Of a stretch of 64,000 nt of DNA, positions 3,867 through 14,980 are shown piece after piece. The position numbers and the translations under genes were made by a program. Origin of the DNA: Desulfobacterium sp. (GTDB lineage: Bacteria > Desulfobacterota > Desulfobacteria > Desulfobacterales > Desulfobacteraceae); assembly GCA_016342325.1 (NCBI GenBank), contig JAEINR010000014.1:1-64000 (forward strand), given 5' to 3'. The stretch's first letter is position 1, and every line of letters begins with the position of its first letter. The notes beneath the pieces were generated by a model. It did not search any database. It was not told the origin of the DNA and saw only the letters and a program-made list of their open reading frames with translations.

Positions 3867-4197
3867 TCGTTTATACGATGAAAGATGATAAGAAACCGCC
3901 TTTTAGGGGCCGCTGAAAAGCGGACGAAAAAGTTTGCATTGAGAGATTATGCAGCCGTTACCTGATCGCGATGGATTTTTTATGTTGAAACAGAATCAAT
4001 TAAAATACGTGAAAATATAACTCAACGTGTATTTTGTCTTCATTTAGGATGGCAATTTTTTTGAAAAGAATGATGCAGTATATGATGGATTGTTCAGTTT
4101 CGCAACTGAAAAATGTGCGCGTGACGGCAATAAAGCAGGTTGTCAGAAGATGTCGCAGATGAACCGCCACCGTTGGGACGATATTCAAATGCCTAGC

Positions 4198-4230
4198 AAA
4201 AAGAGAGGTGGCACGGTGATCCGTGCCACC
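4198..4230 (-). terminator. Terminator of the met/hdr operon
   Basis: Perfect 10-bp stem GGTGGCACGG / CCGTGCCACC with a TGAT loop (4207-4230), followed on the minus strand by CTCTC and then five T. It sits 20 bases after the stop of metF, the last gene of the operon. Confidence 0.6.
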
Positions 4231-4249
4231 ATCCAAATAAGTGGAGGGG

Positions 4250-5182
4250 TCACACCTTGGGGCGGGGAAGCACGCCGGCCCTTTCTGCGATCTCGGGTAC
4301 CTTGTGCTCCCATTCGATGGCCATGAGATGGACCCCGGCCACCCCCTCCATCTGTTTGAACTCCTCGATCTGCTCCAGGGCGAAACAAATGCCCTCTTCG
4401 GCCTGTTTTGCTTTTTCCACCCCCTTGAGCCGTTTTTTCAGGGCGTCGGGGATGTCCATGCCGGGCACGAATTTGGCCATGAAATTGGCCATGCCCAGGT
4501 TCTTCATGGGGGTGACCCCGGCCAGGATAAAGCATTTTTCCGTAAGTCCCATATCCACGGCCTGGTGCATGAAGGTGCGGAACTTCTCCATATTGAAGAT
4601 GCACTGGGTCTGGATAAAGTCGGCCCCTGCCGTGATCTTGTTGGCAAGCCTGTAGACCCGGTACTCAAAGGGATCGGCAAAGGGGTTGCAGGCCGCCCCC
4701 ACAAACAGCCGGGGGGGGACGTCGATCTCCTCATCGTTCATGAACCGGCCCTTGTCCCTCATGTTGGTGACCAGGCGGATGAGTTGCATGGAGTCGATGT
4801 CATGGACATTTTTTGCCTGGGTGTGGTTGCCGAAGCTCTGGTGGTCCCCGGACAGGCAGAGCATGTTACGGATACCCAGGGCATGGGCCCCGAGGATGTC
4901 CGAGGTGATGGCCAGGCGGTTCCGGTCCCGGCACACCATCTGGAAATTGGGTTCCATGCCCTCGTGGACCAGGAGATGGGAGGCGGCAAGGCTGGACATG
5001 CGCACCACGGCGGTCTGGTTGTCCGTGATGTTCACGGCATCCACCATGCCCTTGAGGTGGGCGAACTTTTTCTTGAGATGGTCCACATTGGCGCCCTTGG
5101 GCGGACCGCACTCCCCTGTAAAGGCAAAATGGCCGGCCCTGAGGATCTTTTCAAGATTGCTTCCTGATTTATACTCATCCAT
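4250..5182 (-). CDS. metF: Methylenetetrahydrofolate reductase, MetF subunit
   Basis: 310 residues, a TIM-barrel FAD enzyme of the MTHFR family. It interconverts 5,10-methylene- and 5-methyl-tetrahydrofolate. Family features: the N-terminal FTGECGPPKGAN strand, DAVNITDNQ, the nucleotide-contact stretch NMLCLSGDHQ, the GADFIQTQCIFN segment, and the FILAGVTPMKN region near the C-terminus. It lacks the NADH-using extension of aerobic enzymes and lies directly after metV (76-bp gap), as in acetogens where MetV and MetF form one unit. Here it is the last gene of an hdr-mvhD operon, so electrons probably come from the Hdr module rather than directly from NADH. In a sulfate reducer the complex may run in either direction. 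Confidence 0.93.
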   Translation of the reverse strand: MDEYKSGSNLEKILRAGHFAFTGECGPPKGANVDHLKKKFAHLKGMVDAVNITDNQTAVVRMSSLAASHLLVHEGMEPNFQMVCRDRNRLAITSDILGAHALGIRNMLCLSGDHQSFGNHTQAKNVHDIDSMQLIRLVTNMRDKGRFMNDEEIDVPPRLFVGAACNPFADPFEYRVYRLANKITAGADFIQTQCIFNMEKFRTFMHQAVDMGLTEKCFILAGVTPMKNLGMANFMAKFVPGMDIPDALKKRLKGVEKAKQAEEGICFALEQIEEFKQMEGVAGVHLMAIEWEHKVPEIAERAGVLPRPKV

Positions 5183-5258
5183 GGGATTCTCTCCTTTGAC
5201 AAAGGGTTTGGCTTTATAGCGAATATTTCCGTGTTTTTTGGGTTTTGCCTTGGCCGGG

Positions 5259-5927
5259 TCAGGGAATCAACTCCTCCCGGATGCTTCGTCTGGGGCCGCC
5301 GTCCCTGGCCGAGCGCCAGTCCTTGGCCTCCATCACCGTCAAAAGATCGTTGAGGCGCCCCTGTTCCATCTTTTTTTTCACGATCATGTCCCAGATGCAG
5401 AGGGTTTCCTTAGACACCTCACAGAGGCCGTCTGATGAGCCGCCGCAGGGGCCGTGGAGGAGGCTCTTGGCGCACCGTGCAACGGGACAGAGCCCGTCAA
5501 AGTGATGGATGATACAGGTGCCGCACCCCTGGCATCGCTCTTCCCATACGCCGTGGCTCACGGCGCCCCCGAAAAAGGTGGTGTTCACCCCGGGGAAGAA
5601 GAGCTGGTCGGGATAGGCCTCGGAGAGGAACTGGGGACCCACCCCGCAGGCCAGGGAGACGACGGCATCGTAGGTGTTGATCCCCTCTTTTAGCTGGGCC
5701 ACATACTCGTTGTCGCACTGGCGCTCAATGGTGACGGTCTCGATCTCAATGGGCTGGTCACTGGTTTTTCGTGCCAGATTGATGGAGGCCTCCAGGATTT
5801 CCACCTCCTTTTCCCCGCCCACATTGCACACGGTGACACACCCCCGGCACCCCACAATGAGGATCTTATGCTTCTCCTGGACCATGGCCAAAATCTCTTC
5901 AAGGGATTTTCTGTCTGCAACTATCAT
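5259..5927 (-). CDS. metV: Methylenetetrahydrofolate reductase partner MetV (Fe-S/zinc protein)
   Basis: 222 residues. The N-terminal half resembles a Rossmann-like domain with GCRGCVTVCNVGG near 27. The C-terminal half is Cys-rich (RCQGCGTCIIHH near 132-143, GLCPVARCAKSLLHGPCGG), the MTHFR C-terminal domain that carries an Fe-S cluster or zinc and contacts MetF. MetV is needed for activity of acetogen-type reductases and is thought to pass electrons to the MetF flavin. The gene lies 20 bp after mvhD and just before metF. It contains no membrane segments, so it is cytosolic. Confidence 0.9.
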   Translation of the reverse strand: MIVADRKSLEEILAMVQEKHKILIVGCRGCVTVCNVGGEKEVEILEASINLARKTSDQPIEIETVTIERQCDNEYVAQLKEGINTYDAVVSLACGVGPQFLSEAYPDQLFFPGVNTTFFGGAVSHGVWEERCQGCGTCIIHHFDGLCPVARCAKSLLHGPCGGSSDGLCEVSKETLCIWDMIVKKKMEQGRLNDLLTVMEAKDWRSARDGGPRRSIREELIP

Positions 5928-5947
5928 GGGTCACCTCTTCATTATGG

Positions 5948-6385
5948 TTATACGGTTGCATGGGTTTTTGACCGTTTGTTGACCGGGCTTGGGCCCAACG
6001 CGACGATCCGTGCCGTGATTTCGTCTGCGATCTCGGCAAACCGCTTCCCCTGGGCGGAGGAGAGGTTGAACATGGCCACCCGGTCGGGTTCCATGCCGAT
6101 CTCGGCCAGCACCTTTTGGACGTACGCCACCCGTTTCCTCGCCTTTAGATTTCCCGTTCTGTAGTGGCACTCCCCTTCGAGGCAACCGGCCACATAGACG
6201 CCGTCCGCCCCGTTCTCAAGGGCGTTTAGCAGATGAATGATGTCCACCCGGCCCGTGCAGGGCACCTGGATCACCTTGATCTCGGGCGGATAGGAGAGCC
6301 TCATGGAACCTGCCAGGTCCCCGGCTGCGTAAGCTCAATATTGACAGCAAAAGGCGACGATTTTTGGTTCAAACGCTGTTGTCAT
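5948..6385 (-). CDS. mvhD: MvhD-type [2Fe-2S] electron carrier, selenoprotein (Sec at codon 17)
   Basis: 145 residues when the in-frame TGA at 6335-6337 is read as selenocysteine. The start ATG at 6385 has GGAGGA seven bases upstream. The N-terminus reads ...VAFCCQY-Sec-AYAAGDLAGS, which matches the MvhD motif where a Cys normally stands at the Sec position (CxxC-YAxADLAG). Downstream come PCTGRVD, GADGVYVAGCLEGECHYRTGN and the C-terminal helices typical of the family. A conventional ORF call would start at 6304 and lose the first cluster ligands. MvhD passes electrons between an input module and HdrA; Sec-containing homologues are established in methanogens. Located between hdrA (31-bp gap) and metV (20-bp gap). 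Confidence 0.9.
6305..6321 (-). promoter_or_regulatory. Putative SECIS hairpin of mvhD
   Basis: Thirteen bases after the TGA codon the mRNA can fold GGGACCT-GGC-AGGTTCC, a 7-bp stem with a G-containing apical loop. Bacterial SECIS elements sit at this kind of distance inside the coding region and recruit SelB. Supports reading of TGA as selenocysteine. Confidence 0.65.
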
Positions 6386-6416
6386 AATAGTCCTCCACAA
6401 TGGATCGTAAAAACAA

Positions 6417-9400
6417 TTATCCTTCCTGGAACAGGGCATCGGTTTTGGCCATGATCTGCCGGTCGGTGAAGTGGTGGAGCCGGATGGCCTTTGCCGGGCA
6501 CTCTGCCACACAGACGCCGCAGCCGTGGCATTCGGACGGCTCGATCACGGCATACCCCTCTTCATGGACGTAGGGAATCTCATAGGGACAGGCCCTGACA
6601 CAGGTGAGGCAGACGGCACAGGTCTCCTTGTTCACTTCGGCCACCACTCCACCCACCATGATCGAATCCTTGGAGATGATGGTCATGGCCCTTGCCACTG
6701 CCGCCTTTGCCTGGGCAATGCTCTCCTCCAGGGGTTTGGGGTAGTGGGCAAGGCCCGCCACAAACAGCCCGTCCGAAGCAAAATCCACGGGTCTTAGTTT
6801 GGCATGGGCCTCCACCAGGAAGCCGTCGCTGTTTACCGGTACCTTGAACATCTCGAACAGCGCCTGGTTGGCGTTGGGAAGAATGGCCGAGGCCAGCACC
6901 AGATAATCCGGCCGGATCCTCACCATCATGTTGAGTACATGGTCCATGATGGTGATGGCCAGGGTGTTATCGGCCCCAAGGGTCACTTCCGGTCCGTTTT
7001 CCGGCTCAAACCGGATAAAGATCACCCCCTTGCTTCGGGCCTCCTTGTAGAGATCCTCCCTGAACCCGTAGGATCGGATCTCCCGGTAGAGAATGTAGAC
7101 CCGGGTGGCGGGATTCTCCTGCTTCAGGGCAAGGGCGGTCTTCAGGCTGTGGGTGCAGCACACTTTGCTGCAATAGGGGCGCTCTTCGTTCCTGGAGCCC
7201 ACGCACTGGATGAACACCACGGCCTTGGTTTTTTTTACCCCGTTTGAACTTGCCTGGACCACCTTGTCCATCTCCAGGTGGGTCAACACATTGGGGTGTT
7301 TGCCGTAGAGATAGAGATCGGGCTTCAGCTCGTGACCGCCGGTGGCGATGATGGCGGCACCGTGCTCCACCAGGGTCTTGCCGTTGATGGCCCCCTCCTG
7401 GGCAATGGTGGTGACGAAATTGCCCAGGGACCCGGTTGAGGCGACGACCCTTGCGTTGGTGAAGAGTTTTAACCTGTCGTGGGCCTTGACCCGTTCCATG
7501 AGATCCTCGAGATAGGGGGCGACCTTTTCCCCCTGCCAGGTGGTCTTGAGATCCCGGGCCACCCCGCCCAGAACCGCGGACTGTTCCACAAGAAAGGCGT
7601 TGAAGCCCTGGTCCGCCACCCCCAGGGCTGCTTCCATGCCGGCCACCCCGCCCCCCACCACCAGGACCGCCTTGTGGATGGGAAGGTTCACCAGATGGAG
7701 GGGTTCTACATGGGCGGCCTTGGCAACGGCCATGCGCACCAGGTCCTTGGCTTTTTGGGTCGCTTTTTCAGGCTGGTTCATGTGAACCCAGGTGTTCTGG
7801 TCCCTTATGTTTGCCATCTCAAAGAGATATTTGTTCAGCCCTGCTGCCCGGATGGTTTCCTGGAACAGGGGTTCATGGGTCCTGGGGGAGCAGGAGGCCA
7901 CTACCACCCGGTTGATATTTTTTTCCATGATCACATCCCGGATGTGGTCCTGGGCATCCTGGGAACAGGAGAAAAGGTTGTCCTCCACATGGACCACCTG
8001 GTCAAGGCTGGCGGCATAGTCCCGGACCGCCGGCACATCGGCGATGCCGCCGATGTTGATGCCGCAGTTGCAGACAAAGACCCCGATGCGGGGGGCCATG
8101 CCCGAGAAGTCCCGTTCCGGCACAAGCTCCGGGGTGCGGGTCAGGCGCCAGCGTTGGGTGGTGAGGAGATTGGCTGCCGAGGTCGCAGCTGCTGAGGCCT
8201 CCATGACCGAGCCCGGAATATCTTTGGGCTCCTGGAAGCTGCCGCACACAAAGATGCCTTCTTTTGTGGTATCCACCGGGGAGAGGTTCGCGGTTTCTGC
8301 AAACCCGTGACGGTTGAGTTCGATTCCCATGGTTTTGGCAAGGGATGCTGCATCCTTGGGCGGGGCCAGGCCCACGGACAGGACCGCCATGTCGAAGATT
8401 TCCTCCACGGTTGAGCCGGGTTCGGTGGCATAGACGATCTTGAGGGTGTCATCCTTGTGGGGAAATATGCTGTGGATCCTGGATCGGACCAACCGCACCC
8501 CGTGCTCGTCCTGGGCACGGATGCTGTAAGCGTCGAACTCCTTGCCATGGGTTCTCATGTCCATGAAAAAGATGGCGGTATCAAGTTCCAGTTCGCTGTG
8601 CTCCTTTGCGATGACAGCCTGCTTGTTGGCGTACATGCAGCACACCCCGGAGCAGTAGCTGTGGTCACCCTTGTTGATATCCCTGGAGCCCACGCACTGG
8701 AGCCAGGCGATTTTCCGGGGTTCCCGCTGGTCCGAGGGCCGCACAAGATGCCCCATGTTCGGACCTGAGGCAGACAGGAGGCGCTCAAACTCGATGCTGG
8801 TGACCACGTTGGGGATGGTGCCGTAGCCGTAAGTGTCGTAGACGGAGGGGTCAAAGGCTTCGAATCCCGGGGAGAGAATGATAGCCCCCACGGACAGTGT
8901 TTTTACCTCCGGCACCATGGTGTGGTCCACGGCCTTGGCAAGGCAGACATCCACACAGGCCATGCACTCGGAACAAAAGCCGCAGTTGAGGCAGCGGTCC
9001 GCCTCCACTTGACCCGCTTCTTCAGGAAGGCCCAGCTCTACTTCGCGGAAATTGCCCTGGCGATCTTCCAGGGGCAGTTCCGGCATGGGGGAACGGGGCT
9101 GCCGGGGAAGGTCCGGTGGGATCGGGACAAAATCGGCTTCATCTGATGGGGAAATATTCCCTTTTAAGGACGTGTCCTCTTTCACAGCGGTCTTGCCGGT
9201 AAGATAGCGGGCCATGGACGCTGCCGCGGCCATGCCCGCACCCACGGCACCGATGGCCACCCCGGGGCCGGTTTGGAAATCGCCTCCTGCAAACACCCCC
9301 GCCCGTGTGGTGGCATGGGTATCAGGATCCACCAGGGCCGTGCCCCAGGCCGTCATCTCAATGTTGCCAAGGGCCTCCATAATAGAGAGATCCGGCCGCT

Positions 9401-10868
9401 GGCCGATGGCCGGGACAATCTGATCCACCCGGATCTCAAACTCGGTGCCGGGAACGGGAACCGGGCGTCTCCGGCCGGAACGGTCCGGTTCGCCAAGTTC
9501 CATTTGAATGCATTTAAGGCCCGTGACTTGGTTTGCTTCTCCCAGCACCTCCTGGGGCGCGGCCAGATAGACCAGCTTGACCCCCTCGTCCTCGGCGGCC
9601 TGGATCTCCTCTTCCCAGGCCGGCATCTCGTTCCGGGTGCGGCGATAGAGGATGGTCACCGAATCTGCCCCCAGGCGCAGGGCGCTCCTTGCCACGTCAA
9701 TGGCAACATTGCCGCCGCCGATGACCGCCACCTGTTTTCCCACCCTAAGGGGTTCCTTCAGGTTCATCCGTCGCAGGAAATCCACCCCCTGGCAGACCCC
9801 GGCCATGGTTTCGCCGGGAATGCCAAGGCCGATGCCCTGGTGGGCGCCCATGGCAAGGAACACGGCGTCAAACCCGTCCGAGAGAAGGGTGTCCACGGAG
9901 AGATCGTTCCCCAGGGGCGCGTTGAGGCGAATCTCCACCCCCAGATGGGTGACAACTTCGATCTCCATGTCGATGATCTCCCTTGGCAATCGGTGCTCGG
10001 GGATGCCCACCCTGAGCATTCCCCCGGGCTTTGCCAGGGCCTCGAAAATGGTGGCGCCAATGCCTTTTCTGGCCAGGTGATAGGCGGCGGACAGGCCGGC
10101 CGGGCCCGATCCGATGACGGCGACCTTTTTCCCCGTGGGATCATCACAGTTGATTTTTATCGTTCTGGGATCAAACCGGTCGGCGGCCAGCCGCTTGAGA
10201 TCCCGGATGGCAATGGGCTGGTCCACCTCGTTTCTCCGGCAGACGGTTTCGCATTCATGGGGGCAGATTCGGCCCAGAATGCCCGGCAACGGAAGCTTGT
10301 CCATGATGATCTCAAGGGCGCGTTCGTATCGTCCCTGCTTGACCATCTGGACATAGCCCTGGACATTGATGTTGGCCGGGCAGGCAAGGGTGCAGGGGGC
10401 CCTGTCCCCTTTGTCGATGGCAAAGGCCGAGGGCATGGCCTGGGGATAGAGCTTGAACGCGGCCTTTTGGTTGCACAGGTTTTCGTCAAACCGGCTGGGC
10501 AGTTCCACCGGGCACACCGTGGCGCACTCCCCGCAGGCCGTGCATTTCTCAAGATCGATGAATCGTGGTTCTCCCAGCACGGTGACCGCGAAATTGCCGG
10601 CCTCTCCCGTGACTTCCCGGATCCGGGTCATGGTGGACAGCTCGATGTTGAGATGCCGTCCCGCCTCAACAAGCTTAGGCGAGATGATGCACATGGAGCA
10701 GTCGTTGGTGGGAAAGGTCTTGTCCAGCTGGGCCATGACCCCGCCAATGGCGGAACTCTTGTCCACGAGGTGGACAAAGAAGCCTGAATCGGCAAGGTCA
10801 AGGGCCGCCTGGATTCCTGCGATGCCAGCACCCACCACCAGCACTGATCCTCTCTTGTTCTCATCCAT
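6417..10868 (-). CDS. hdrA: Giant HdrA flavoprotein with embedded GltD/NfnB-like NAD(P)H module
   Basis: 1483 residues, cytosolic. I start at ATG 10868 (GGAGGG just upstream), not 39 codons earlier. Order: HdrA N-part with FAD fold (VVGAGIAG) and the cluster motif NDCSMCIISPK; a ferredoxin motif CTACGECATVCP near 106; a GltD/NfnB-like insertion at about 150-620 (CTLACPANINVQGY, GSGPAGLSAA, IGGGNVAIDVAR, AGGDFQTGPG); a second HdrA-like unit (CVGSRDINKG, CNCGINIGG, VVGGGVAGMEAAL); and two C-terminal [4Fe-4S] motifs (CAVCLTCVRACP, CHGCGVCVAECP). HdrA carries the bifurcating flavin. The inserted module probably lets the complex take electrons from NAD(P)H directly. It has Cys, not Sec, at the HdrA redox site. 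Flanked by hdrCB (16 bp) and mvhD (31 bp). Confidence 0.9.
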   Translation of the reverse strand: MDENKRGSVLVVGAGIAGIQAALDLADSGFFVHLVDKSSAIGGVMAQLDKTFPTNDCSMCIISPKLVEAGRHLNIELSTMTRIREVTGEAGNFAVTVLGEPRFIDLEKCTACGECATVCPVELPSRFDENLCNQKAAFKLYPQAMPSAFAIDKGDRAPCTLACPANINVQGYVQMVKQGRYERALEIIMDKLPLPGILGRICPHECETVCRRNEVDQPIAIRDLKRLAADRFDPRTIKINCDDPTGKKVAVIGSGPAGLSAAYHLARKGIGATIFEALAKPGGMLRVGIPEHRLPREIIDMEIEVVTHLGVEIRLNAPLGNDLSVDTLLSDGFDAVFLAMGAHQGIGLGIPGETMAGVCQGVDFLRRMNLKEPLRVGKQVAVIGGGNVAIDVARSALRLGADSVTILYRRTRNEMPAWEEEIQAAEDEGVKLVYLAAPQEVLGEANQVTGLKCIQMELGEPDRSGRRRPVPVPGTEFEIRVDQIVPAIGQRPDLSIMEALGNIEMTAWGTALVDPDTHATTRAGVFAGGDFQTGPGVAIGAVGAGMAAAASMARYLTGKTAVKEDTSLKGNISPSDEADFVPIPPDLPRQPRSPMPELPLEDRQGNFREVELGLPEEAGQVEADRCLNCGFCSECMACVDVCLAKAVDHTMVPEVKTLSVGAIILSPGFEAFDPSVYDTYGYGTIPNVVTSIEFERLLSASGPNMGHLVRPSDQREPRKIAWLQCVGSRDINKGDHSYCSGVCCMYANKQAVIAKEHSELELDTAIFFMDMRTHGKEFDAYSIRAQDEHGVRLVRSRIHSIFPHKDDTLKIVYATEPGSTVEEIFDMAVLSVGLAPPKDAASLAKTMGIELNRHGFAETANLSPVDTTKEGIFVCGSFQEPKDIPGSVMEASAAATSAANLLTTQRWRLTRTPELVPERDFSGMAPRIGVFVCNCGINIGGIADVPAVRDYAASLDQVVHVEDNLFSCSQDAQDHIRDVIMEKNINRVVVASCSPRTHEPLFQETIRAAGLNKYLFEMANIRDQNTWVHMNQPEKATQKAKDLVRMAVAKAAHVEPLHLVNLPIHKAVLVVGGGVAGMEAALGVADQGFNAFLVEQSAVLGGVARDLKTTWQGEKVAPYLEDLMERVKAHDRLKLFTNARVVASTGSLGNFVTTIAQEGAINGKTLVEHGAAIIATGGHELKPDLYLYGKHPNVLTHLEMDKVVQASSNGVKKTKAVVFIQCVGSRNEERPYCSKVCCTHSLKTALALKQENPATRVYILYREIRSYGFREDLYKEARSKGVIFIRFEPENGPEVTLGADNTLAITIMDHVLNMMVRIRPDYLVLASAILPNANQALFEMFKVPVNSDGFLVEAHAKLRPVDFASDGLFVAGLAHYPKPLEESIAQAKAAVARAMTIISKDSIMVGGVVAEVNKETCAVCLTCVRACPYEIPYVHEEGYAVIEPSECHGCGVCVAECPAKAIRLHHFTDRQIMAKTDALFQEG

Positions 10869-10884
10869 TTGTATCCCTCCTTTG

Positions 10885-12171
10885 TTAGAGGCCCACCATG
10901 GCCAGGTCGGGTCCAAGATAGCTTCGTTCGTTCTCGTCGAGAATCCCCATGGCCAGGCAGAGGATGGTCCAGAGATGGACCACATGGTAGGCGCCCCCGT
11001 AGTGGGCGCCCATGTCTTCGATCTGGGCGTGGCAGTTGTGGCAGGGGGCGATCACATATTGGGCCCCTGTCTCCATGACCTGGTCGAACTTGATCTTTCC
11101 GTAAGCCTTGCGCTGGTCCGTGTGCCCGGCCTGGAGGGCACCGCCCCCGCCGCCGCAGCAGAAGTTGTTGGCACGGTTGGGGGCCATCTCCCTGAAATTC
11201 TCTTCGCCGATGGCGGCTTTCAGTACAAAGCGAAGGTCGTCCACGATGCGGTTGGTGCCGGCCTTTCGCCCGATGTTACAGGGGTCCTGAACCGTGAATT
11301 TAACCTTGAGGTCCCGGTTCCAATCGGCGTTGACCACGAGCTTTCCCTCCCGTATCCACTGGGCATAGAGTTCGATGATGGTGACGAGTTTGAAATTATG
11401 GTCGATCTTGTATTTTCGCAACCCTTCCAGGATTGCAAAGTAGGAGTGGCCTCACTCGGTGTTGACCACCAGGGGACTCTTCAGATTGATGTCCACGTGG
11501 TGGACAAACTCCTCCAGGATGTATCGCCACCCCTCGTCGTCGGCCAGGAACATGCAGTAGTTCTCTCCGGCCCACATCACCGACGGATAGGTCCAGTCGG
11601 CATCCACCAGGTGGAGGATCTTCCACAGGGGGCCCAGCTCGTCCGGTTCGGTAACCGGCTCCCTGGAGTTCTGGTTCAGCACCATGGCTGTCCCTTTTCG
11701 GTCCACCGAGACTTTCAGATCCTTGAAAGCGGGCTGATTCTCCCGGATCTCCTCGGCCACATCCTCCACGGTGAAGATGAAATCATCCCGGGGCACGCCC
11801 ATGGCGTTGCCGGCTTTGATGTGCTGGTCGCAGGAGCCCCGGATGCCCTTGGGACGCTCTTCCCTTGGCAGGCTGGCCCGTACGTTGTAGATCAATTTGG
11901 GGATGTCGATATCCATGGGACAGGCGTGCTTACACCGTGCGCACATGGTGCAGACCCATGCCCAGGGAGAATTTCGCACCTCGTCGTCCATGCCCAGCAC
12001 CACCATTCGTAAGAATCGTCTCGGGTCCATGTCGTATTGCTCCGAGGCCGGACATCCGCCGGTACAGGTGCCGCAGGTGAGGCAGAGATCAAGGTTGGCG
12101 TCCGGCAGGAGGTGGGTGATTTGTTCCTTTAATTCACACGTACAATCGTCAATGTCAATTACCCTTGCCAT
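10885..12171 (-). CDS. HdrCB fusion (HdrD/DsrK-like Fe-S oxidoreductase), selenoprotein (Sec at codon 240)
   Basis: 428 residues when the in-frame TGA at 11452-11454 is read as selenocysteine; conventional calling splits it into a 239-aa and a 178-aa ORF. N-part (HdrC-like): two [4Fe-4S] motifs, CLTCGTCTGGCP near 30 and CTMCARCKHACP near 74. C-part (HdrB-like): two CCG-type domains. The first ends VVNTE-Sec-GHSYFAILEG, where relatives carry the Cys of a CGH motif; the second holds FCCGGGGGALQAG and APCHNCHAQ, as in DsrK/TmcB/HdrD. Reading frame and domain order are continuous across the TGA. In MetVF-type complexes HdrB and HdrC supply a second electron path from HdrA. The first CCG domain has lost some usual Cys (AGENYCMF), so the cluster there may be unusual. 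Confidence 0.88.
11418..11436 (-). promoter_or_regulatory. Putative SECIS hairpin of hdrCB
   Basis: Fifteen bases after the TGA the mRNA can fold GCAATCC-TGGAA-GGGTTGC: a 7-bp stem (one G-T pair) with a GG-containing loop, the expected place and size for a bacterial SECIS. Confidence 0.65.
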
Positions 12172-12263
12172 GGCTGACTCCTTTTTGCTATAGATGTTCG
12201 CAATGGAACTGATATTTGTTGAGCTTTTCCAATAAAAACCGGGGTCAATCCCTAGGCGAAGAT

Positions 12264-13139
12264 CTATAATTTTGCCGCATTAAGATAATGGGCAAGCCGG
12301 TCCTGCCCGCCGATGGTGATGATGTGTACGCCCTGGCAGAGGTGCCGCAGGCCGTTGATGGTCTCCGCGAAAAGTTCCACGCTGGCCCGTGCCTTGTCCG
12401 GCGCGTCCATGAGCTTCCGGATGGCCCAGTCCGGCACCAGGCCCGACCGGAAGTGGCGGTTCAAAAACTTTCCCATGCCCGCAGTCCTGAGGATCATCAC
12501 CTCGGCGATTACCGGGACCTGAAAGGTGTTTACCTGTTTCATGAACCGTTCAAACTGGTCCAGGTCAAAGATCGGGGTGGTGAGGAAATAGCCCGTGTTC
12601 AGGTTCATCATGTCCTCCATCTCTTCCATGCCCTTCTTGCTCACCGGCTTTCCCCAGGGGGTGGCGACCCCGGATCCGAGGGTGAATTCCATCTTGTTCG
12701 GCAGGGCTTCTCCGTCGATGGTCTGGCCATCCTTCATGTGCTTGAGTACGGAACCCAGTTTCCCCGAGTCCACATGGAAAAACATGGTCTCCTGGAGGGT
12801 GTCCCCGGAGATTCGGTAATCCTCGGTAAACACCAGGAGGTTTTCCACGCCGATGCCATGGGCGGCGGCAAGATCTTTCTGGAGCTGGAATCGGTTCTTG
12901 TCCCTTGTGGTGGTCTGATAGATGGGGGTGAAACGGTTTTTGTTTAAAAGATCGCAGGTTTGGATGGTGTCGCCCACCACCCCTTGGAGTTCAACCTCGG
13001 ACACAGACACCCCGTCCACCCGGCCCTTCACCCGTTTGAGGCTGTTGACCAGCATTTCGGGATCGTCATCGCCGAGGGGGGCCTGGATTTCAGATGTTAC
13101 GACAAATCGCTTTTGATCCAATGCTTCTCTTAGGTTCAT
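12264..13139 (-). CDS. MetF-like methylenetetrahydrofolate reductase family protein
   Basis: 291 residues with the MTHFR barrel outline: FVVTSEIQAPLGDDDPEML at the N-terminus (the conserved SEI-P strand), DGVSVSEVELQG, TTRDKNRFQLQKDL, and VIAEVMILRTAGMGKFLN near the C-terminus. It differs clearly from the metF at 4250 and lacks that protein's QTQ segment (it has GYFLTTPIFDLDQFE). Second gene of the operon, 13 bp after the regulator and 92 bp before hdrCB. It could be a second reductase subunit, a different folate enzyme, or a non-catalytic partner; family-level assignment is secure, exact role is not. Confidence 0.75.
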   Translation of the reverse strand: MNLREALDQKRFVVTSEIQAPLGDDDPEMLVNSLKRVKGRVDGVSVSEVELQGVVGDTIQTCDLLNKNRFTPIYQTTTRDKNRFQLQKDLAAAHGIGVENLLVFTEDYRISGDTLQETMFFHVDSGKLGSVLKHMKDGQTIDGEALPNKMEFTLGSGVATPWGKPVSKKGMEEMEDMMNLNTGYFLTTPIFDLDQFERFMKQVNTFQVPVIAEVMILRTAGMGKFLNRHFRSGLVPDWAIRKLMDAPDKARASVELFAETINGLRHLCQGVHIITIGGQDRLAHYLNAAKL

Positions 13140-13152
13140 GACGTGCCTCCTC

Positions 13153-13725
13153 CTATTTTAATCCAAGCAGGGTTGCCACTTCCGATTTGAGCTGGGCCAG
13201 GGGCAGGGGCTTGGTTAAGCAAATGTCCGCGCCGTTCTCCTTCATGGTCTTGAACTTTTCGTCGTCAAGGTAGGCCGACAGGACGATGATCTTGATCTCC
13301 CGGGTATCGGGACTTGACTTGATCTTTTTGCACACCTCGTAGCCCTTGATGTCGGGCATCATGATGTCCAGGATCAGAAGATCGGGGTTGAAATGCTTGA
13401 CCTGGAGCCCGGCCTCAAACCCGTCCGAGGCGGAGATCACATCGTAGTCGAACTCATCCTCCTCCAGGGCCTGGACGATGGACTCCACGATGATCATGTC
13501 GTCGTCCACAACCAGGATTCGTTTTCGCCCCTCTTCGCCCTTTTCCTCGGGAATGGGGATACCCTGGTTCTCCATGAAGGCCAAAAGATCTGCTTTTTTG
13601 ATTCGTCGATGGCCGCCCACGGTCTTGTACGCCTTGATATGACCGGCCTCGACCCAGTTGATGATGGTTTTAGATGAAACGTTGCAGTATTTGCTCGCGG
13701 TAAATACGGTCAAGGTATCTTCCAT
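13153..13725 (-). CDS. DNA-binding response regulator: MerR/excisionase-type HTH followed by receiver
   Basis: 190 residues. An N-terminal helix-turn-helix of the MerR/excisionase class (TASKYCNVSSKTIINWVEAGHIKAYKTVGGHRRIKK, about 8-45, split here only by description of its region) is joined to a CheY-like receiver (about 68-190) with acidic pocket VVDDD, phospho-acceptor D in LLILDIMMPD, and the conserved K in CLTKPLP. This order, HTH first and receiver last, is the reverse of most response regulators. First gene of the seven-gene met/hdr operon, so it may autoregulate it. No kinase gene is adjacent; a kinase elsewhere must phosphorylate it if it is active. Confidence 0.88.
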   Translation of the reverse strand: MEDTLTVFTASKYCNVSSKTIINWVEAGHIKAYKTVGGHRRIKKADLLAFMENQGIPIPEEKGEEGRKRILVVDDDMIIVESIVQALEEDEFDYDVISASDGFEAGLQVKHFNPDLLILDIMMPDIKGYEVCKKIKSSPDTREIKIIVLSAYLDDEKFKTMKENGADICLTKPLPLAQLKSEVATLLGLK

Positions 13726-13768
13726 AACGCATCCCTCCTCTAAATTTTTGGGGGTAATCTACTTATTT

Positions 13769-13833
13769 TAATTATTATAGATTTATTCAATCGTCAAGAA
13801 GGATTTAATGTGTATTGTTGATTTATTGAATGA
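13769..13833 (-). promoter_or_regulatory. Putative promoter and paired operator of the met/hdr operon
   Basis: On the minus strand a -35-like TTGACG (13792-13797) is followed after 17 bp by TAATTA (13769-13774). Two direct repeats of a near-identical 12-mer (GATTTATTCAAT at 13780 and GATTTATTGAAT at 13820) lie 40 bp apart, one inside and one just upstream of the promoter. The 40-bp distance is close to four helical turns and would suit cooperative binding by the HTH-receiver protein encoded next. Confidence 0.4.
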
Positions 13834-13904
13834 ACGTCATACGGCGAAAAAAATATTGGATCACAAATCGGGGGTCAGGTTTATACCTTTGACCTAGGTC
13901 TGTC

Positions 13905-13929
13905 GGGGGCCCAGGTACGGGTGGCCCCC
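13905..13929 (-). terminator. GC-rich hairpin after epd
   Basis: Stem GGGGGCC / GGCCCCC with an 11-nt loop, about 30 bases past the epd stop. No T-run follows on the minus strand, so factor-independent termination is doubtful. Confidence 0.3.
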
Positions 13930-13957
13930 TTGGCACAAGGCGTGAAAACCGTGGGGG

Positions 13958-14980
13958 TCAGGCGTTGCTCTTTGCAAGGAGGGCCGCTGCCGTGTCGAGC
14001 ATCCGGTTGGCATAGCCCCACTCGTTGTCAAACCAGGCGAGGATTTTAACCAGGGTGGTGCCGCTGACCCGGGTCTGGCAGCCGTCCACCACCGACGATC
14101 TTGAGTCGTGGTTGAAATCGCAGGAGGCAAGGGGCTCTTCCGTATAGCCGAGGATGCCGGTGAGCCGTCCCTTGGACGCCTTGTGCAATATATGGTTCAC
14201 CTGGGTGACGCTGGTGGGTTCGGACACCACCACTGTGATGTCCAGGGCCGATACGTTGATGGTGGGCACCCGCATGGAGACCGCCTGGAATCGTCCGGAG
14301 AGTTCGGGCAGTATCCGGTCGATGCCCTTGGCAAGCTCCGTATCCACCGGAATGATGGACTGGCCGGCACACCGGGTGCGGCGAAGGTCGTGGTGGTGGT
14401 AGGCATCGATGACGGGCTGGTCGTTCATGACCGAGTGGATGGTGGTGATGATTCCCGATTCAATGCCCAGGGCGTCGTTGAGCACCTTGAGCACCGGGAC
14501 GCTGCAGTTGGTGGTGCAGGAGGCGTTGGAGATCACCCGGTGGTGGGGTTCAAGGGTGTGGTCGTTGATGCCGTAGACAATGGTGGCATCCACATCATCC
14601 TCGGCCGGTTGGGAAAAGATTACCTTTTTCGCCCCGCTTTCGATGTGCTGTTCGGCCCGCTTTCTCTGGGAGAAAGACCCGGTGCACTCCAGCACCACGT
14701 CAACCCCAAGTTCGGCCCAGGGCAGTCGTTGGATCTCCGGTTCATGGGTCAGCCGAATTTTAGTGTTGTTCACATAGAGGTCATTTCCGCAGATCGTCAC
14801 CTCGCCTGAGAATCGGCCGTGGGTGGTATCATATTTTGTCAAATGGGCCATGGTCCTGGCATCTGAAAGCTCGTTGATGCCGACGATCTCAAGGGCCCGA
14901 AAGTGGTGGGACTCGTAGAGGGCCCGAAGGACCGAGCGTCCGATTCTTCCATATCCGTTTATAGCGACTCTGTGACTCAT
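13958..14980 (-). CDS. epd: Erythrose-4-phosphate/glyceraldehyde-3-phosphate dehydrogenase (Epd type)
   Basis: 340 residues, GAPDH fold. NAD-binding [14 protein letters not shown] at the N-terminus, catalytic SNASCTTNC near 155, [14 protein letters not shown] and DLRRTR segments, [10 protein letters not shown], and the C-terminal [15 protein letters not shown]. The HSxMxDQxVIDAYH and [12 protein letters not shown] wording is closer to Epd (erythrose-4-phosphate dehydrogenase, feeding pyridoxal phosphate synthesis) than to classical glycolytic GAPDH, but the enzyme may act on both substrates. Single gene between the met/hdr operon and the divergent murI; ordinary length. Confidence 0.85.

Follow-up and report, generated by a model that had tools for sequence, protein, structure and literature searches.

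On the minus strand of a 64,000-nucleotide stretch of Desulfobacterium sp. DNA (the window, by which the whole of the analysed stretch is meant), a gene of the HdrCB (HdrD-like) type at 10885-12171 is interrupted by a single in-frame TGA. The question that it raises is whether this codon ends one protein and leaves another to begin beyond it, or is read as selenocysteine (Sec) within a single chain and, if so, what selenium might be doing there.

The reading frame and its homologues

The hdrCB frame opens with ATG at 12171, with AGGAG upstream, and closes with TAA at 10887-10885 (all window features discussed here are on the minus strand). TGA at 11454-11452 is the sole stop codon in between, and its translation as U yields a product of 428 aa (MARVIDID...NTE-U-GHSYF...AMVGL) with Sec as residue 240 in the motif TE-U-GH; the assignment of the gene draws on this translation, on orthologues and on the fold. 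An earlier interpretation made from the letters alone (the sequence-only reading) had placed open reading frames of 239 and 178 aa in one frame with only TGA 11452-11454 between them, and translation confirms it. The 178-aa frame had been counted from TTG at 11421; the 10 codons that separate TGA from this TTG are open.

Among 72 distinct homologues at at least 66% identity (the window's gene included), codon 240 is TGA in 69 and TGC in 3, and in none of the 72 is the gene split at this codon. Overall, 99 distinct homologues have TGA, whereas TGC stands in 21 (at least 50% identity) and in the distant TmcB; no third codon occurs. In the Cys homologues the chain is continuous and reads TE-C-GH at this point; those nearest to the window's protein (L150, L151 and L137) are 68-70% identical to it. 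The proposal of Sec in place of Cys (TE-Sec-GH), which was to be checked by looking for Cys or TGA at this position, is thereby upheld; homologues that end and restart at the UGA, named in advance as the contrary finding, were sought among ~120 and not found.

Within the taxonomic family, 85 of 86 genomes have a match, and ~50 orthologues (71-97% identity) contain exactly one TGA each; the finished isolates Desulfosarcina widdelii and Desulfosarcina alkanivorans carry the same TGA. A separate paralogue group in this family (~60-65% identity) has none. Of 395 genomes sampled from the phylum, 113 have homologues that pass the threshold applied, most with one TGA and some without. Tandem copies also occur: in L171 there are two Sec-HdrCB genes (7621-8937 and 9399-10715, with 59% and 55% identity to the protein of the window), both of which have a TGA, and contig 92 of G004 has a pair resembling them.

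Directly after the TGA, Gly at +1 is encoded by GGG, GGC, GGT or GGA and His at +2 by CAC or CAT, so that all changes are synonymous. This use of four codons for the one residue and two for the other implies that what follows the UGA is under selection as translated protein.

A hairpin downstream of the UGA

A SECIS-like hairpin (11418-11436), identified by folding, wobble freezing and co-variation, starts 15 nt past the TGA, just as the sequence-only reading had it (a 7-bp hairpin 15 bases downstream). Its seven core pairs join 11436-11430 with 11424-11418 and close an apical loop, UGGAA. Folding is more stable than that of shuffled sequence (z -3.2 for a 47-nt piece and -1.8 for a 60-nt piece). 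Codons +7 to +11 (ATC CTG GAR GGR TTG) are nearly frozen in 68 TGA orthologues, wobble positions included; the wobble entropy of these codons is near zero in TGA genes and mostly 1-2 bits in 12 TGC homologues. Pairing in the core of the stem is preserved in 93-100% of the 99 TGA genes, as against 38-86% of TGC genes, and the mean hairpin energy is -10.7 and -11.2 kcal/mol in TGA genes vs -5.2 in TGC genes. Between groups of TGA genes the stem co-varies (A-U to G-C, plus other paired changes). Residue +8 is Leu, Arg or Gln in TGA proteins (all specified by CNG codons) and Trp or Tyr in TGC proteins, which suggests that the residue at this position in the TGA proteins is set by the RNA. The features of a bacterial SECIS, a stem-loop just past the UGA, a G in the apical loop and conservation with compensation, are all found here, and comparison of the genes strongly supports selection of the hairpin as RNA, in TGA genes only. 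A search of 4000-14000 against Rfam brought up neither a SECIS nor any other RNA family, its three matches being at chance level; a repeat search of the hairpin regions returned short palindromes only, since the hairpin holds a G-U pair.

Decoding of the UGA

The genome to which the window belongs encodes SelA, SelB, SelD and tRNA-Sec. (Its SelD gene, L187 at G000:C65:87168-88091, contains one in-frame TGA, and SelD is itself probably a selenoprotein, judging from this codon.) As for genomes with the Cys form of HdrCB, the tRNA-Sec of L150 scores above the cut-off and those of L151 and L137 yield none above it; the L151 assembly may be incomplete, since MvhD there still has its TGA. The unbroken Cys homologues, the hairpin selected only in TGA genes and the Sec machinery in the genome together argue for reading UGA 240 as Sec; conservation of the codon and its hairpin goes well past anything that chance would produce. 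There is strong support for the predicted hdrCB product as a selenoprotein in which Sec replaces the conserved Cys of a degenerate first CCG domain.

Were the UGA a true stop, there would be a 239-aa protein and a 178-aa protein, the second re-initiated at TTG 11421. This TTG is present at codon +11 in 67 of 68 close orthologues and is directly preceded by GGAAGG. However, its conservation is explained by its place in the hairpin's 3' arm, and the +11 codon is mostly CTG in the Sec paralogues. Moreover, the ten codons from UGA to TTG show selection at the protein level (Gly-His invariant, wobble free), the Cys homologues run unbroken through the site of the UGA, and a stop there would cut a single HdrB domain in two. 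Termination is accordingly most improbable, and two separate subunits are rejected because homologues are unbroken and the UGA lies inside the HdrB domain. The chance that the stop codon is a sequencing error or a mark of gene decay, as an interrupted gene in a 205-contig assembly might suggest, is negligible: the identical TGA in dozens of independent genomes, finished isolates among them, refutes both.

Fold and cluster ligands

The N-proximal, HdrC-like part of the protein (11920-12084) has two CxxCxxCxxxC motifs, C30-C40 and C74-C84, for two [4Fe-4S] clusters, recognized by Pfam Fer4_8/Fer4_17 and by their invariant Cys. An AlphaFold2 model built from a 68-sequence alignment (pLDDT 88.7, pTM 0.89) places HdrC at the N-terminus and matches HdrB chains over residues 161-427 (10891-11691; Z 19-20), with a degenerate CCG 1 followed by an intact CCG 2. 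Its best structural match over the whole chain is EtfD (365 residues, Z 24.9). Many racemases also match, at Z ~5, which is taken as a shared Rossmann-like arrangement. The proposal of a joined HdrCB/HdrD-like chain is sustained by the two [4Fe-4S] motifs, the CCG domain and a fold made up of HdrC and a complete HdrB. It fails in making the UGA the joint between HdrC and HdrB: residue 240 sits inside the HdrB-like domain, in the model 80 residues into the fold, and takes the place of the leading Cys in the CxxC of degenerate CCG 1.

Invariant in 96 of 96 homologues are C206 (11554-11556), the CCG 1 partner, Cys or Sec at 240, H242 (11446-11448) and the five Cys of CCG 2, C298, C338, C339, C377 and C380 (11032-11280). 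CCG 1 of the window protein has only C206 and U240 left; CCG 2 has all five Cys. The protein thus has the HdrB fold of HdrB and HdrD proteins without five Cys in each CCG domain. A profile comparison of one half of the HdrB domain with the other matched nothing beyond the residues common to both profiles.

A phmmer alignment to EtfD (~17-19% identity) equates U240 with Cys581, H242 with His583 and S243 with Cys584, and C298/C338/C339/C377/C380 with Cys637/672/673/709/712. U240 also aligns with a cluster Cys of HdrB. In EtfD, Cys503, 538, 581 and 584 hold a linear [3Fe-4S] cluster, D1, and Cys637, 672, 673, 709 and 712 together with His583 hold a noncubane [4Fe-4S] cluster, which His583 is held to make non-catalytic (PMC13083937). 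In the HdrCB family position 243 is Ser, Glu, Val or Ala, and the first Cys of EtfD cluster D1 is absent. His242 is probably a noncubane-cluster ligand, by analogy with EtfD through this alignment at ~17-19% identity.

The operon

The block reads, in order, RR-MetF2-HdrCB(Sec)-HdrA/GltD-MvhD(Sec)-MetV-MetF. Its first gene (13153-13725) encodes a small protein that combines a MerR/excisionase-type HTH with a response-regulator receiver, likely the regulator of the operon by its domains and conservation. A second, divergent metF-like gene (metF2, 12264-13139; 25% identical to metF) lies just upstream of hdrCB. Downstream are hdrA (6417-10868; 1483 aa, with a GltD-like NAD(P)H/FAD domain and no in-frame TGA), mvhD (5948-6385), metV (5259-5927; PF12225) and metF (4250-5182; PF02219). 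Two selenoproteins in one operon had been proposed, and a second Sec codon is indeed present in mvhD (6337-6335, CQYU); the attendant idea of "unusually reactive" clusters is not supported. Assignment of the mvhD codon as Sec rests on retention of the TGA in relatives, because the energy of the similar short hairpin that accompanies TGA 6335-6337 (GGGACCUGGCAGGUUCC) is not below that of shuffles (z 0.3).

Across 59 ortholog loci (several on short contigs that end early) MetF2 and HdrA are each present in 57, RR in 54, MvhD in 37 and MetV/MetF in 29-30; all seven genes are found together in 26. The genomes include Desulfobacula, Desulfotignum, Desulfospira, Desulfosarcina, Desulfatitalea and others. 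In about half of the loci no MvhD or MetV/MetF turned up in the vicinity (partly due to contig ends), so that HdrCB may also work without them. MetF2 accompanies hdrCB also where MetV/MetF are not found nearby, and may be the true partner of HdrCB. Paralogues in the window's genome (C157, C149 and C28) gave no clue to a substrate, because their neighbours (kinase, RNase D, Lon-like and similar) include no conserved redox partners; the exception is the C28 copy, with hdrA/mvhD ~2.5 kb away on the opposite strand.

Selenium is distributed differently in the two proteins. HdrCB has Sec and MvhD has Cys in Desulfosarcina and Eth-SRB2; the same operon in L150 (hdrCB at 7138-8433) and L151 (8522-9805) combines HdrCB with Cys and MvhD with Sec. 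These opposite patterns imply that selenium has been exchanged independently in HdrCB and MvhD. A quick tree forces at least five Sec/Cys changes on well-supported branches; its total of nine is an upper figure, as one row, L153, was scored as Sec and has TGC at codon 240 and its stop elsewhere.

Relation to known systems

A family of Fe-S oxidoreductase-like (GlpC) selenoproteins with the motif UGH was published by Zhang et al. in 2006 (PMC1794560; reviewed in PMC13188914). The window protein shares with it UGH in an Fe-S/CCG protein, occurrence in Deltaproteobacteria, adjoining hdrA and frhD/mvhD, and Sec/Cys exchange (the reference WP_174406253.1 is compared by description only). The published operons contain the hydrogenase genes frhG-frhA, whereas the window has metV, metF, a second metF and a regulator. 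HdrD4 and HdrF2 of Desulfobacterium autotrophicum HRM2 are selenoproteins (PMC2702500) and likewise join HdrC and HdrB domains in one Sec chain; in G058, of the window's genus, the only counterparts are paralogues (56-58% identity) that the operon does not surround. The nearest curated models are TmcB, HmcF and DsrK, and TmcB of the window genome keeps the equivalents of C206, C240 and H242. Membership in any of the three is rejected (165, 180 and 114 bits against cut-offs of 735, 750 and 400, respectively). HdrCB, in which HdrC and HdrB are fused, is a relative of DsrK/TmcB/HmcF and of the "GlpC" selenoproteins. Mycobacterium smegmatis EtfD (PDB 9ojn), which resembles it in fold and at U240 and H242, differs in having membrane helices and four Cys for its first cluster.

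For the operon, the closest parallels come from PMC9430772: an Hdr-type methylene-tetrahydrofolate (methylene-THF) reductase has been proposed for Moorella thermoacetica (2014 work cited there), and MetF, HdrA, HdrB and MvhD interact in Sporomusa ovata. MetV, MetF, MvhD and HdrA occur together in both systems, as they do in the window, and HdrA of Moorella has the same added GltD domain (1487 aa there, 1483 here). HdrB and HdrC are separate in those systems, and the accessible text mentions no Sec; in the window they are fused, with one CCG domain degenerate and Sec in it, and MvhD also has Sec. Seep-SRB1g genomes have HdrABC beside metF (PMC10553843). The selenoprotein family and Sec-containing HdrD are thus already published. 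The methylene-THF operon setting and the position of Sec in the fold are apparently new: a search, with subscription journals mostly outside it, found no earlier paper placing Sec GlpC/HdrCB in a MetVF block or mapping Sec to a cluster site.

A proposed function

UGA 240 would be decoded as Sec by means of the bacterial SECIS hairpin just downstream, as the comparative evidence suggests. Gene order and the known complexes point to HdrCB as part of an Hdr-type methylene-THF reductase, in which it would replace separate HdrB and HdrC; the block holds metV, metF, mvhD and hdrA, but not hdrB and hdrC as separate genes. That hdrCB specifies one selenoprotein within a methylene-THF reductase operon is, on the strength of sequence, highly probable. 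The weak association of MetVF with Hdr proteins in S. ovata (PMC9430772) argues against a complex of this kind.

MetV and MetF would carry the C1 reaction, HdrA/GltD would exchange electrons with NAD(P)H and flavin, and MvhD, also a putative selenoprotein, would exchange electrons with a further partner. Electrons would pass between HdrA and, by way of the two [4Fe-4S] clusters, one noncubane [4Fe-4S] cluster, held, if EtfD is a guide, by C298, C338, C339, C377, C380 and probably His242. In complete oxidation of acetyl units by a sulfate reducer the reaction would probably run from methyl-THF to methylene-THF, and in autotrophic growth in reverse. The methylene-THF/methyl-THF potential of -200 mV (PMC9430772) is too high for unaided reduction of NAD+, which makes it plausible that HdrA performs flavin-based coupling and that a second acceptor is served at HdrCB.

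Of the second-cluster site of HdrB, only Cys206 and Sec240 would be kept. Sec is typical of two-electron redox sites. Cys206 and Sec240 could form a thiol/selenol pair executing two-electron chemistry, beside the cluster, with a protein dithiol/disulfide or a MetF partner; analogy gives this tentative proposal slightly less than an even chance. Alternatively, Sec240 might be a selenolate ligand of an Fe-S cluster at CCG 1, or bind the noncubane cluster as a ligand that can be displaced. Its counterparts in the alignments, Cys581 of EtfD, which ligates the linear [3Fe-4S] cluster, and a cluster Cys in HdrB, are consistent with this. Just two of the four EtfD D1 equivalents (C206 and U240) remain, however, and FadF and DgcB also lack the D1 cysteines (PMC13083937), which makes such a ligand possible but doubtful. 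It is unlikely that HdrCB, like EtfD in the role proposed for it, is an electron wire only, whose noncubane cluster is shielded and non-catalytic and whose Sec tunes potential or oxygen tolerance. Invariant His242, whose EtfD equivalent is held to render the cluster non-catalytic (PMC13083937), fits a wire, but a wire needs no conserved Cys plus Cys/Sec, and Cys206 and C/U240 are both invariant; the two-electron character of Sec sites also speaks against it.

Significance

GlpC-type selenoproteins have been listed since 2006 without a function. Their placement in a conserved block whose reaction is defined (reduction of methylene-THF or oxidation of methyl-THF) makes a substrate testable; by the EtfD alignment, selenium would occupy a named position of a cluster, with the His that caps the noncubane cluster two residues away. 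The independent exchanges of Sec and Cys in HdrCB and MvhD of one operon provide natural pairs for measuring what selenium does. Throughout a whole family of sulfate reducers, ordinary gene calling splits this protein of core energy metabolism into two.
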